Origin: Parcubacteria group bacterium GW2011_GWD2_42_14
GTDB taxonomy: Bacteria; Patescibacteriota; Minisyncoccia; Phycocordibacterales; UBA12088
Direction: 5' to 3'
DNA: 49,030 nt
NCBI GenBank assembly: GCA_000998045.1
Contig: LCCS01000018.1
Span: forward strand, 1 to 49,030
Every line of letters starts with the position of its first letter. The first letter of the stretch is position 1. This document shows, one piece after another, positions 43,579 to 47,852 of this stretch. The notes below the pieces were generated by a model. The model did not search any database. It was given only the letters and a program-made list of their open reading frames with translations, and had not been told where the DNA came from. The translations under genes were made by a program, and so were the position numbers.

Positions 43579-44157
43579 TTATTTTGCTCCTTCAAGTGCA
43601 TTATTAACACGCATTACAAGGGTTTGCTTATGGACTTGGGCCAGCTCAATAAGCTCAACTGTAAATGCTGTATTGCCAAAAAACCTTTCTATAAGAGGGT
43701 CTTGTACTGGTCGCGCCACATAGCCGAGTATGTTGAGAAATCGTAAAACAGTTACTACCTCAATAAGTGTCGCGTACTCTTCAGGAAATGTATGAAATGC
43801 TTGAGTACCGCATTTCAGCACATCAAACAACTCAATAGTGGTATCTTCAACTGGCACCATACTACCAATAAGGTGCAGGATTCTCTTTTTATATATTTGT
43901 TGTGCCAGAGGGACACGCTCTTCTCTCCCTGTTTGCGCTCCCGTGATACGCCACGTCTCTCTGCCTCGTACGAGTGTTATGTCTGACATTTCTCCTGTTT
44001 GCAGAGCGTACCTGTTGCGACTTTTTAGCTCACGCACACTCTGTCCATGAGCGTAGAGAAGTCCTAGCTCTCGGGTAAGCAGTTTGTACACCTTATTTGA
44101 TTCACCTTGCGGATACGCTTCTAGGATATACGCTTCAGTTGTATACAGTGTATGCAT
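43579..44157 (-). CDS. recO: DNA repair protein RecO
   Basis: 192 aa, shorter than the usual ~240. The N-terminal OB fold (YTTEAYILEAYPQGESNKVYKLLTRELGLLYAHGQSVRELKSRNRYALQTGEMSDITLVRG) is typical, then a helical region. The C-terminal zinc cysteines found in many RecO proteins are absent. RecO helps load RecA on gapped DNA. TATAAG, partly formed by the end of TIR element R5, lies 11 nt before ATG. Confidence 0.85.
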   Translation of the reverse strand: MHTLYTTEAYILEAYPQGESNKVYKLLTRELGLLYAHGQSVRELKSRNRYALQTGEMSDITLVRGRETWRITGAQTGREERVPLAQQIYKKRILHLIGSMVPVEDTTIELFDVLKCGTQAFHTFPEEYATLIEVVTVLRFLNILGYVARPVQDPLIERFFGNTAFTVELIELAQVHKQTLVMRVNNALEGAK

Positions 44158-44171
44158 GAGAACTAGTTCTT

Positions 44172-44352
44172 ATAGGACTTACACAAACGGCGCACCACAA
44201 GAGTACTTCATTTTTCTAATTGCAAAGCTCATAAGAAAAATTAGTCGCATTTCATCGTTGCTCGTCACAAAATATCTCTCGTAGTATTGTTCATACAACT
44301 CGTTCTATTTTGCTTGGGCGCCTCGAACTGCATCCGTTTGCGTAATTCCTAT
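44172..44352 (-). mobile_element. TIR element copy R5, overlapping the ileS 3' end
   Basis: 181 nt with ends TATAGGACTTACACAAACGG and CGTTTGCGTAATTCCTAT. It includes a ~45-nt insert with a hairpin TTTTTCTAATT/AATTAGTC-like segment. On the minus strand its first codons are read as the C-terminus of IleRS (IGITQTDAVRGAQAK, then stop), while the far end supplies a -10-like TATAAG to recO. Confidence 0.8.
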
Positions 44353-45720
44353 CTTAGTAAGTGAGGCAGTGAAGGTAACCGTGTCCACTGTAAAAGGTAT
44401 ACCCTCGTCGAGTGACGTTGCAAAGGAAACTGTCTCAACACCTGCCACACGAGTAAGCTCACTCTCCGCAACTTCAAGCAACTGCTTCCCCTCAACACTC
44501 GTCTCTACAGTCAGTGTAACTTTGTCTTCTGGAGAAAGACCTGTCTTTTTTCGCATATCTTGAATAGCACGCACAATATCTCGCACAGCACCTTCTTGTC
44601 GGAGATCATCAGTAAGCTCTGTGTCCAAGACCACCTCATCTTCCTGTGATGCGTCTACGGCGCATACTTTTACATTTATCTCATCACAAAGAATTTCAAG
44701 AAGGGCTGATTCAGATTCAAAACGATTAGTTGCAAGGGTGATTTTCGCAAGCGGTTGTCGCACTTTTATACCTGCTTTTTGTCGTGCCTCAAGCGCAAGG
44801 GATGCGAGACGTCGTATTTCTGACATATCATCTATGATTTTCTTATCAGGCTCACTATATGAAGGCCATTCCTCAAGATGAACACTCTCCTTTTCTCCCC
44901 CGACACCTTTGTATAGGCTCTCAGCGATGTATGGTGTGATAGGCGCAACGATCTTTGCAAGAGTAAGAAATACTTCACGCGACACCGCAAGGACACGGAG
45001 GCGGTCTTCGGCATCCTCTGATTTGAAACGATCACGAGATCTGCGGATATACCATGTCGAGAGATCAGTCACAAAGTCACGCAACACACGTGCACTTCGT
45101 ATCGTGTCATATGCATCCATGTGGCGCGTCACGCTTTGTACAGTTTCCCCAAGTCGAGCGAGTACCCATGTATCGAGCTTCGTAAGGTTTTGCACATCAC
45201 GCACCTTCTCTGTGTTTGTGCCGATGTTCATCTCGTAAAACTTATACGAATTCCATATCATGTTGATGAAACGGTTGTGTGCTTCGCGAAGCTCTTCGTC
45301 CTTAAAGGCAGAATCTTCCGCCGACATCACCACAGATCCCATCATGTAAAAGCGCATGGCATCAGCTCCGTAGAGGTCTATGTTGACGTATGGGTCGGTG
45401 AAGTTTTTCTTTGATTTGCTTATCTTTGCTCCATCGAAAGCAAGGAGTGTGCCTGTCGTGACACAGTTCTTAAAACTTGGATTGTCAAAGAGCAAGACGC
45501 CCATCGCATGCATGTAGTAAAACCATGTTCGTGTCTGAGCAATGTACTCGGTGATAAAGTCTCCTGGGTATCGTCTCTCCACCACTTCTTTGTTTTCATG
45601 CGGATAATGCTCTGAGGCAAATGGCATCGAGCCTGACTCCACCCAGCAGTCCACTACTTCAGGAGTACGTATGAGACGCGCTCCATCTTCTGCAACAAGC
45701 TCAAGTATATCGATATAACT
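44305..45720 (-). CDS. ileS: Isoleucyl-tRNA synthetase, C-terminal part (frameshifted)
   Basis: About 471 aa continuing the synthetase after the frameshift at 45720. It begins SYIDILELVAEDGARLIRTPEVVDCWVESGSMPFASEHYP, includes the KMSKS motif as AKISKSKKNF, DPYVNIDLYGADAMRFYM, an anticodon-binding helical region (SRDRFKSEDAEDRLRVLAVSREVFLTLAKIVAPITPYIAESLY), and a C-terminal domain. The last 15 residues come from TIR element R5. Not a separate gene; ATG at 45654 lacks start signals. Confidence 0.85.
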   Translation of the reverse strand, partial: SYIDILELVAEDGARLIRTPEVVDCWVESGSMPFASEHYPHENKEVVERRYPGDFITEYIAQTRTWFYYMHAMGVLLFDNPSFKNCVTTGTLLAFDGAKISKSKKNFTDPYVNIDLYGADAMRFYMMGSVVMSAEDSAFKDEELREAHNRFINMIWNSYKFYEMNIGTNTEKVRDVQNLTKLDTWVLARLGETVQSVTRHMDAYDTIRSARVLRDFVTDLSTWYIRRSRDRFKSEDAEDRLRVLAVSREVFLTLAKIVAPITPYIAESLYKGVGGEKESVHLEEWPSYSEPDKKIIDDMSEIRRLASLALEARQKAGIKVRQPLAKITLATNRFESESALLEILCDEINVKVCAVDASQEDEVVLDTELTDDLRQEGAVRDIVRAIQDMRKKTGLSPEDKVTLTVETSVEGKQLLEVAESELTRVAGVETVSFATSLDEGIPFTVDTVTFTASLTKIGITQTDAVRGAQAK

Positions 45721-47852
45721 AGCTCGTATTCTTTGTTATGGGAAAGGGGTACGAAATCAACCACGCGGAAGTCTGCGTTTCTAAGAAAATCTTCACTGTC
45801 TCCTCGTATAGCGACACACTCCTTACCTGCTGCGCCCTGTGCGACACATTCAGCAAACCAGACCGTATATTCATGACCAACAATAAGAATGGTTTCGCCG
45901 TGGTACTTCTCTTCAAGTTCGTAGAGTGCTTCACCTATACGTCGCTTCATGTCACGAAGTGTCTCCCCAGTACCACACCCTTGCTCAAAACGGTTTTTAT
46001 ATGAGGGACACACTGTTTGCAATTCAGAAACTGGCTTACCGTTTAAATCACCGAGTTGCCATTCTTGGAACCTTGCTTCGATAGTAATTTTTTGTTTATC
46101 AAATCCTATTTCGTCTGCAAGAATATCAGCGCTCTCCTTGGTGCGCACGAGCGGGCTCGTGATGATTTTGGTAATGCCTTTGTCTTTGAGTTGTTTTGCA
46201 ACTGCACGAAGCTGTTCCTTACCCTTCTCAGTTAGCTTGTGGGTATTCTCGGGAAGTGAGCTAATAACATGCTCCACATTACTCCCGGCTTCTCCGTGTC
46301 GTAAGAAAATATACGTGTTGCCTGATTTTTTTGTGCGTTCACGAAGCTCGGCGAGTGAGCCAAATACTTGTATCTCCCCTGTCTTCTCATGCTTCCAAAT
46401 AGGAAGAGGACTTGCCCAAAAACGGTTGCGGGAAATAGTCCAGTCAGGAGCGGTCTCAACAATATTCTTGAAGCGACCGTGCTTGAGATGCTCTGGGTAC
46501 CAACTCACTTCTTCGTTTGCCTCGAGCAGGCGTTTCTTTACCGACTGAATATCGATAAACCATGACGTAAGTGCGTTGTAGATAAGCGCCGTGCCACATC
46601 GGTAGCAGTGTGGGTAGGAATGCGTGTGGTTGTGCTTTGCAAACAGTAGACTTCGTTTTTCTAAATCTTCCATCACATACTTCCCTCCTTTTTTGTAGTA
46701 CATGCCTTGCAGTTCTTTCGGAGCATCCGTGTTGTATGTACCTGTACCATCGAGAAGTGGTACCACAGGAAGATTGTTTTTTAGTCCAAGTGCATAGTCG
46801 TCTTCTCCATACATTGGTGCGATATGGACCACTCCCGTACCATCTTCAGTCGTTACAAAGTCTGCAGAAAGTACTGTCCATGCCTTTTCACTTTTTGCAT
46901 TCTTAGCTTTCTCTATTTCATAGAGTGGTTCGTAGGAGATACCGACTAATTCACTTCCTTTATACTCACTTACAACCGAATATTCTGAATCTTTAAAAAC
47001 TGTTGTGAGTAAACTCTTTGCAAGAATAAATCGCACCAGCGGCCCCATACCCTCGTCTTTCTTTTCAATCAACACATAGTCAATGTTTTCACCAACCGCC
47101 AACGCCATGTTCGCAGGCAATGTCCAAGGTGTTGTTGTCCATGCGAGAATAAATGTTGGAAGATTGTCATCTACTTTTATTCCTTTTACTTTCAACTTTA
47201 AACTTTCAACTTTAAACTTTATATAAACCGCTTCATCCGTCACATCCTTGTAACTGTTATCCATCGCAATCTCCGCCTTTGAAAGCGGGGTTTCGCAACG
47301 CGGACAGTACATTAAGACCTTCTTCCCTTCATAGAGCCGTTTGTCCGTATGAATTTTTTTGAGTGCCCACCACACACTCTCGATGTAGCTGTTGTCCATC
47401 GTCTTGTAGGAATTGTCAAAATCTACCCAACGTCCGATACGGTCGACGTAATCCTTCCATTCATCCACATACGCAAGCACCGAGTTCTTTGCTTCTTCGT
47501 TAAACTTGTCAATGCCAAGCTTTTCAATATCTTTCTTGGTCGCGAGTCCAAGCTTTTTTTCTATCATGTGCTCAATAGGAAGACCATGGCAGTCCCAACC
47601 CCACCGACGAGGCACGTAGTACCCCTGCATCGTTTTATATCTTCCAACGACATCTTTTACCACAGACGATAGAAGCGAGCCGTAGTGAGGCAAACCGGTG
47701 GCAAACGGCGGTCCATCGTAAAACACGAACTCACCATTTGGAGCTTCTTTTTCAAGACTTTTTTCAAAAATAGTGTTCTCTTCCCAGTGCTTAAGCACCT
47801 CTTCTTCTCGAAGCGATGTCTCTGATTTCTTGTTTTGAGGTTTTTCTGACAT
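45654..47852 (-). CDS. ileS: Isoleucyl-tRNA synthetase with inserted histidine phosphatase (N-terminal part)
   Basis: Eukaryote-like (type 2) IleRS. HIGH appears as PFATGLPHYGSLL, WDCHGLPIEH follows, the editing domain contains LAWTTTPWTLPANMALAV, then WTISRNRFWASPLPIW. From residue ~510 to ~710 a full histidine-phosphatase domain is inserted: YIFLRHGEAGSN, SPLVRTKESADIL, FQEWQLGD and LIVGHEYTV give the RHG, second Arg, acidic and second His residues. It then shifts frame at 45720. Start at 47852 is preferred because TACGAT lies 7 nt upstream. A heptad-repeat segment at 47182-47224 adds KFKVESLKLKVKGIKV in frame. Confidence 0.9.
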   Translation of the reverse strand: MSEKPQNKKSETSLREEEVLKHWEENTIFEKSLEKEAPNGEFVFYDGPPFATGLPHYGSLLSSVVKDVVGRYKTMQGYYVPRRWGWDCHGLPIEHMIEKKLGLATKKDIEKLGIDKFNEEAKNSVLAYVDEWKDYVDRIGRWVDFDNSYKTMDNSYIESVWWALKKIHTDKRLYEGKKVLMYCPRCETPLSKAEIAMDNSYKDVTDEAVYIKFKVESLKLKVKGIKVDDNLPTFILAWTTTPWTLPANMALAVGENIDYVLIEKKDEGMGPLVRFILAKSLLTTVFKDSEYSVVSEYKGSELVGISYEPLYEIEKAKNAKSEKAWTVLSADFVTTEDGTGVVHIAPMYGEDDYALGLKNNLPVVPLLDGTGTYNTDAPKELQGMYYKKGGKYVMEDLEKRSLLFAKHNHTHSYPHCYRCGTALIYNALTSWFIDIQSVKKRLLEANEEVSWYPEHLKHGRFKNIVETAPDWTISRNRFWASPLPIWKHEKTGEIQVFGSLAELRERTKKSGNTYIFLRHGEAGSNVEHVISSLPENTHKLTEKGKEQLRAVAKQLKDKGITKIITSPLVRTKESADILADEIGFDKQKITIEARFQEWQLGDLNGKPVSELQTVCPSYKNRFEQGCGTGETLRDMKRRIGEALYELEEKYHGETILIVGHEYTVWFAECVAQGAAGKECVAIRGDSEDFLRNADFRVVDFVPLSHNKEYELVISIYLSLLQKMERVSYVLLK
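47182..47224 (-). repeat. Heptad repeat inserted in the ileS coding sequence
   Basis: On the minus strand AAAGTTTAAAGTTGAAAGTT-type sequence lies in frame between VYIKF and DDNLPTFILAWTTTPW, where relatives need only a short loop. It is translated as basic and hydrophobic residues (SLKLKVKGIKV). Confidence 0.7.

Follow-up and report, generated by a model that had tools for sequence, protein, structure and literature searches.

A conserved histidine phosphatase domain inside the isoleucyl-tRNA synthetase of a patescibacterial order

The tRNA synthetases are among the best-studied enzymes, yet in one order of bacteria the isoleucyl-tRNA synthetase (IleRS) contains a conserved phosphatase. The order belongs to one of the largest bacterial radiations, and its members are tiny and uncultured. 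A histidine phosphatase (HP) domain is present, complete and conserved within the IleRS gene (ileS) across this order and beyond, and it is repeatedly associated with IleRS or valyl-tRNA synthetase (ValRS). Conservation, repeated insertion and adjacency of separate genes fit a real enzyme that is connected with IleRS and ValRS. The combination has more than one origin and involves both synthetases, and it can be read in two ways: either there is an undescribed phosphorylated molecule tied to isoleucine or valine charging, or essential synthetase genes are safe capture sites in reduced genomes. Both readings can be tested with one purified protein.

The ileS gene of the window

In the window, i.e., the whole 49,030-nucleotide stretch of DNA that was analyzed, ileS lies on the reverse strand in two parts (Table 1). 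The first part is a frame of 735 amino acids, which holds the first half of the catalytic domain, then the CP1 editing domain, with its motif TTTPWTL retained, and then the HP; tRNA-synt_1 (PF00133) scores 294 bits in this frame. The second part contains the second half of the catalytic domain, the KISKS signature, the anticodon domain and DUF5915. The match to the IleRS model TIGR00392 is divided by the frameshift between the parts, with 566 bits for the N-terminal part and 267 bits from position 45717 onward. The HIGH signature, an altered active-site motif of the synthetase, reads HYGS instead of HxGH in the window's family and in one distant family (the window, L005, L006, L008, L009, L010 and L160, with HAGS in L006).

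The frameshift comes from the absence of 13 nt that are present in the nearest relative (L034/L005, 88% amino acid identity). The missing nucleotides encode most of the conserved DLHRP, the frame of the N-terminal part and HP terminates at 45654, and the C-terminal part is read in another frame; the HP reading frame is untouched. The preliminary description quoted both IleRS halves as one protein and overlooked the frame change at the 3' border of the HP. Its placement of the HP between IleRS halves is right in that the HP lies within ileS, but the half that it quoted as "SYIDILELVAEDG...VVDCWVESG" is in a different frame. The gene is single copy in the window's genome, where no second intact ileS was found, and, given the frameshift, the essential IleRS of this genome is broken as assembled. 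In most order-level relatives recovered with the 735-aa frame as the query, ileS is a single frame of about 1110 to 1270 aa that aligns through the HP, and in all near relatives it is one open frame of about 1160 to 1200 aa. The break is therefore private to this genome and is likely a sequencing or assembly error or a rare inactive allele.

Table 1. Features of ileS, its inserted phosphatase and its neighbor in the window, and insertion positions across Patescibacteria
Feature	Location	Strand	Basis or remark
ileS N-terminal part plus HP, one frame, 735 aa	45654..47861	(-)	ORF; Pfam; TIGR00392
HIGH signature of IleRS, reading HYGS (last His to Ser)	47676..47687	(-)	Common to nearest relatives
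Inserted HP domain with linkers, residues 514-716	45714..46322	(-)	Pfam; alignments; Foldseek fold
Pfam core of HP	45831-46310	(-)	PF00300
R521-H522 of RHG motif, phosphate-binding Arg and nucleophile His	46296..46301	(-)	Invariant in 45 IleRS-HP proteins
R573, second catalytic Arg	46143..46145	(-)	Invariant
E600, catalytic acid	46062..46064	(-)	Invariant
H663, second catalytic His	45873..45875	(-)	Invariant
13-nt deletion junction versus L034/L005, shifting the frame directly 3' of HP	45718..45719	(-)	DNA alignment
ileS C-terminal part, different frame	44305..45717	(-)	ORF; Pfam; TIGR00392, 267 bits
KISKS signature (for KMSKS) in ileS C-terminal part	45412-45426	(-)	Common to near relatives
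recO, downstream neighbor of ileS	43579..44157	(-)	Pfam RecO_N; neighborhoods
IleRS position A	Between GSxxELR and DLHRPYID		As in the window
IleRS position B	Between DLHKxxVD and RIPEVLDCWFESG		
IleRS position C	After DCWFESGxMPYxxxHYPF		
IleRS position D	After KMSKS half, before NELDxWILSEL		
ValRS positions, two	Before and after DTWFSSG		

The inserted domain

The insert matches His_Phos_1 (PF00300) over residues 518 to 677 with 105.4 bits (E 4e-30; cutoff, 21.7). The central claim of the preliminary description, a complete HP inside IleRS with all active-site positions, is borne out by this match and by R521, H522, R573, E600 and H663. The span that it gave, 45740-46325, does hold the HP; with its linkers, however, the domain runs from about 46322 to 45714, slightly past 45740. 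By its sequence, the inserted domain is a branch-1 histidine phosphatase with a complete catalytic set. Structure prediction, which had also been suggested, agreed: a two-sequence AlphaFold model of the HP (pLDDT 61, a middling confidence) was matched by Foldseek to solved HPs with a probability of 1.00 (9mmh, PspA 4ij5 and PhoE 1h2e). These solved matches are of the small-molecule type, namely, a riboflavin-pathway phosphatase, phosphoserine phosphatase and PhoE. A full-length prediction made from three sequences reached a pLDDT of 34. Among functional equivalogs, the HP scored under every NCBIfam curated cutoff (CobC, PspA, GpmB, dPGM and SixA), the best being dPGM_arch with 83.9 bits against a cutoff of 225, while CobC gave 71.4 against 162.9 and SixA 35 against 74.5.

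Conservation within the order

A PF00300 scan found an HP inside ileS in 42 of 46 relatives from the window's order, or 42 of the 44 with a readable ileS. The remaining four comprise two genomes that have no readable ileS and two, G030 and G037, whose gene has no insert, and the fusion is thus nearly fixed in the order. That 42 of these 44 genes carry it at one and the same site excludes chance, and the possibility that the insertion was peculiar to this assembly, raised in the preliminary description, is ruled out by the same count. The empty site in relatives (in G030 it reads "...GSTQELKAHSASTIAEQADLHRPNIDS...") shows that the domain was inserted cleanly, with GSxxELR on one side and DLHRPYID on the other, and solved IleRS structures have a short loop at the homologous stretch.

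The catalytic set R-H-R-E-H (R517, H518, R569, E596 and H659 in L005 numbering) is invariant in all 45 of 45 diverse full-length orthologues, which are 35 to 71% identical to L005, and it is also invariant in an alignment of 18 regions. Between the window and L005, the dN of the HP is 0.15 and its pS 0.74, with synonymous sites near saturation; the synthetase part evolves more slowly still (dN 0.045). The HP evolves under strong constraint. Of the 42 genomes with the insert, 15 yielded no HP other than the one in ileS, and 13 of these 15 assemblies are ≥93% complete. Nevertheless, some relatives have lost the insert and G037 has neither an insert nor any HP in its genome, so the HP is inessential for charging.

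Insertion positions and host range across Patescibacteria

How common the insert is, and at which positions in IleRS, was surveyed with a profile scan of 381 Patescibacteria genomes, a check that the preliminary description had advised. The insert is widespread and occupies several positions: HP-bearing synthetase frames occur in many families outside the window's order, at four positions in IleRS (A to D) and two in ValRS (Table 1), with up to three HPs per protein. L072 carries three (B, C and D), L080 and L155 carry two each (A and B), L081 has them at A and D, and the ValRS L074 has two in tandem. Two members of the window's order, G020 and G043, have a ValRS-HP in addition to the IleRS-HP. 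The full catalytic set is retained by 79 of 82 IleRS-inserted and 10 of 13 ValRS-inserted HPs. Two further IleRS proteins, L148 (1188 aa) and L149 (1129 aa), have additional segments without any Pfam match.

Host range was assessed in 80 whole genomes, approximately one per family, a sample that was chosen rather than random and was enriched for flagged families. These genomes gave 128 HP matches, 18 of them in frames of >320 aa, and 16 of these 18 lie inside IleRS or ValRS (8 IleRS and 6 ValRS proteins); no long-frame HP among the 18 was in LeuRS or MetRS. The remaining two long-frame HPs belong to a 2-hydroxyacid dehydrogenase-HP and to an HP-APH protein. Such fusions, of HP with 2-hydroxyacid dehydrogenase and with an APH-type phosphotransferase, are seen at L165:1988-3643 and L166:1566-3140. 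A VTT (DedA-type) membrane protein with a C-terminal HP was also observed in three genomes (L082:4366-5676, L083 and L084, with Pfam run on L082 only).

Other enzymes are found in the same synthetases. L150, L073 and L075 are synthetases with several different enzyme guests: one IleRS holds a serine hydrolase, a NUDIX domain and an HP, another (L073) holds GNAT and HP, and one ValRS holds HAD, a serine hydrolase and HP. NUDIX is much commoner than HP (178 matches in 30 genomes), yet among the 152 NUDIX matches listed, one is in IleRS/ValRS and six are in LeuRS. The latter (L212 to L216 and L217) come from at least 6 of the 30 Patescibacteria genomes, among the matches listed. In L212 to L216, the NUDIX domain keeps its box intact and is placed by Pfam inside the LeuRS editing domain, and L216 contains a HAD domain in addition; L217, assigned to LeuRS by eye, is without a canonical NUDIX box.

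Origins and gene neighborhoods

A phylogeny of 111 HP domains does not recover the inserted copies as a single clade, and the AU test, run on a quick tree, rejected one origin for all synthetase-inserted HPs (P = 0.004). As internal support in the tree is often low, our claim is limited to more than one origin, with no number attached. Stand-alone HPs of G395, G321 and G227, members of the same class, nest among the IleRS-inserted HPs.

Gene order links HP and ileS as well. In G395, G321 and G378, which belong to the class and have no insert, a stand-alone HP gene lies between argS and ileS; it is directly upstream of ileS in G395 and G321, and a short frame intervenes in G378. These three genomes have common synteny and are not independent cases, and HP-ileS adjacency is absent from G227, G256 and G329. 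The argS-ileS-recO block is common to related genomes and is also found in L208, a member of the order that carries the insert, while argS is not adjacent in the window. Either the insert derives from the adjacent gene or that gene is an excised insert; in both directions of transfer, HP and ileS travel together.

Possible functions

The narrow host range, repeated origin, operon adjacency and strict catalytic conservation lead us to favor, tentatively and at a little short of an even chance, an active phosphomonoesterase that is tethered to IleRS and whose substrate is a small phosphorylated molecule tied to charging. The HP sits in a catalytic-domain loop of IleRS, which would make the protein bifunctional, and it would act independently as a phosphomonoesterase through the phospho-histidine mechanism typical of such enzymes, in which H522 would attack, E600 would protonate the leaving group, and R521, R573 and H663 would hold the phosphate. 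The substrate may be a small, diffusible phosphorylated compound that either arises from isoleucine or valine charging or acts on it; a nucleotide by-product would be one candidate, a phosphorylated inhibitor or effector another. Action on a by-product or regulation of charging, which the preliminary description had raised, may thus be the function. Insertion sites vary, which speaks against a requirement for any single geometry and hence for a diffusible substrate. Tethering would hold phosphatase and synthetase at 1:1. Several observations weigh against this proposal: the scores under the cutoff of every functional equivalog, the other enzymes inserted in the same synthetases, the loss of the insert in some relatives (with G037 devoid of any HP), the chosen nature of the 80-genome set and the shared synteny of the three adjacent-gene genomes.

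A wider version of the charging-linked proposal, which we regard as speculative and rather unlikely, would make the branched-chain synthetases a common scaffold for built-in phosphohydrolases, with HP in IleRS and ValRS and NUDIX in LeuRS. Such proteins could form an undescribed layer of quality control or regulation whose targets would be the nucleotide by-products of charging, its effectors or its inhibitors.

Nearly as likely as the tethered, charging-linked phosphatase is a captured passenger, i.e., an HP whose everyday metabolic function has nothing to do with charging and which became nested in an essential gene. Insertion-tolerant loops of the branched-chain synthetases would have taken up small compact enzymes, HP most often, and the HP would be kept because the cell needs its activity and cannot lose the host gene. 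The diversity of guests (NUDIX, HAD, GNAT and serine hydrolase), the several sites and several HP lineages, and the 15 genomes in which the IleRS copy is the sole HP are all consistent with capture, as is G037, which lost insert and HP altogether with no replacement. Capture accounts less readily for the near confinement of long-frame HPs to IleRS and ValRS (16 of 18), since the commoner NUDIX is found there only once among the matches listed, and for the side-by-side HP and ileS genes of some class members.

A role in repairing or regulating the synthetase or its tRNA is improbable. Here the HP would dephosphorylate Ser, Thr or His of IleRS or ValRS (e.g., after the action of a HipA-like kinase) or phosphorylated tRNA. 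Branch-1 HPs include protein phosphatases, there is similarity to SixA (only 35 bits here), and the HP adjoins the catalytic site in the chain. A fixed target would favor one geometry, however, and the sites are scattered over the synthetase; we also know of no kinase or phosphorylation site in these organisms.

A missing housekeeping activity is a very unlikely explanation, whether that of an inorganic pyrophosphatase that draws charging forward or that of a glycolytic phosphoglycerate mutase. The window's genome has enolase and is without the PF01676 phosphoglycerate mutase, and the best NCBIfam match of the HP is to the archaeal dPGM (84 bits), but this score is far under the cutoff of 225. 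The pyrophosphatase role is unlikely because 14 of 15 relatives have a soluble pyrophosphatase. The mutase role is unlikely as a general explanation because G012, whose sole HP is the one in IleRS, lacks both enolase and PF01676 and because G013, which has PF01676, still retains the HP. Two tandem stand-alone HPs are present in the window's genome (G000:C31; L002 and L003) and in several relatives, and, with enolase present and PF01676 absent, one of them could be the missing mutase.

An assembly chimera or a dead structural spacer, to which the 13-nt deletion at the 3' border of the HP might point, can be given hardly any weight, as the same junctions lie in one open frame in dozens of independent assemblies across the order, which refutes a chimera, and the catalytic residues are invariant.

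Novelty and relation to known systems

In the literature, we found no paper joining HP with IleRS or ValRS, or NUDIX with LeuRS, in a search that mostly did not extend to subscription journals and preprints. As NCBIfam lists an IleRS with GNAT, an enzyme-bearing IleRS is a known kind of protein; as far as we searched, what is undescribed is the form with a phosphatase, together with how widely and how repeatedly that form occurs. For annotation, this means that one gene conceals two enzymes.

Four known systems can be compared with the protein described here. (i) Branch 1 of the HP superfamily (the CobC, PhoE, PspA and GpmB group) has the same fold and the full catalytic set; the window's HP differs in scoring under every equivalog cutoff and in its location inside a tRNA synthetase. 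(ii) All domains of IleRS as defined by TIGR00392 (solved in 8c8u, 7d5c and 1ile) are present in the relatives, and the L005 orthologue scores 829.6 bits against the cutoff of 621.4. In contrast to the solved enzymes, there are approximately 200 extra residues between GSxxELR and DLHRPYID, and HIGH is HYGS. (iii) The bifunctional RNase H/acid phosphatase family NF005567 is an example of an HP fused to an RNA-related enzyme, and its HP part aligns with ours at 75 bits (cutoff, 326), but the partner is another one and the HP is not nested in a synthetase. (iv) A precedent for an enzyme domain within IleRS is NF040702 (ileS_w_GNAT), in which the guest is an N-acetyltransferase; L005 reaches only 326 bits against its cutoff of 1999, while L073 carries both GNAT and HP.
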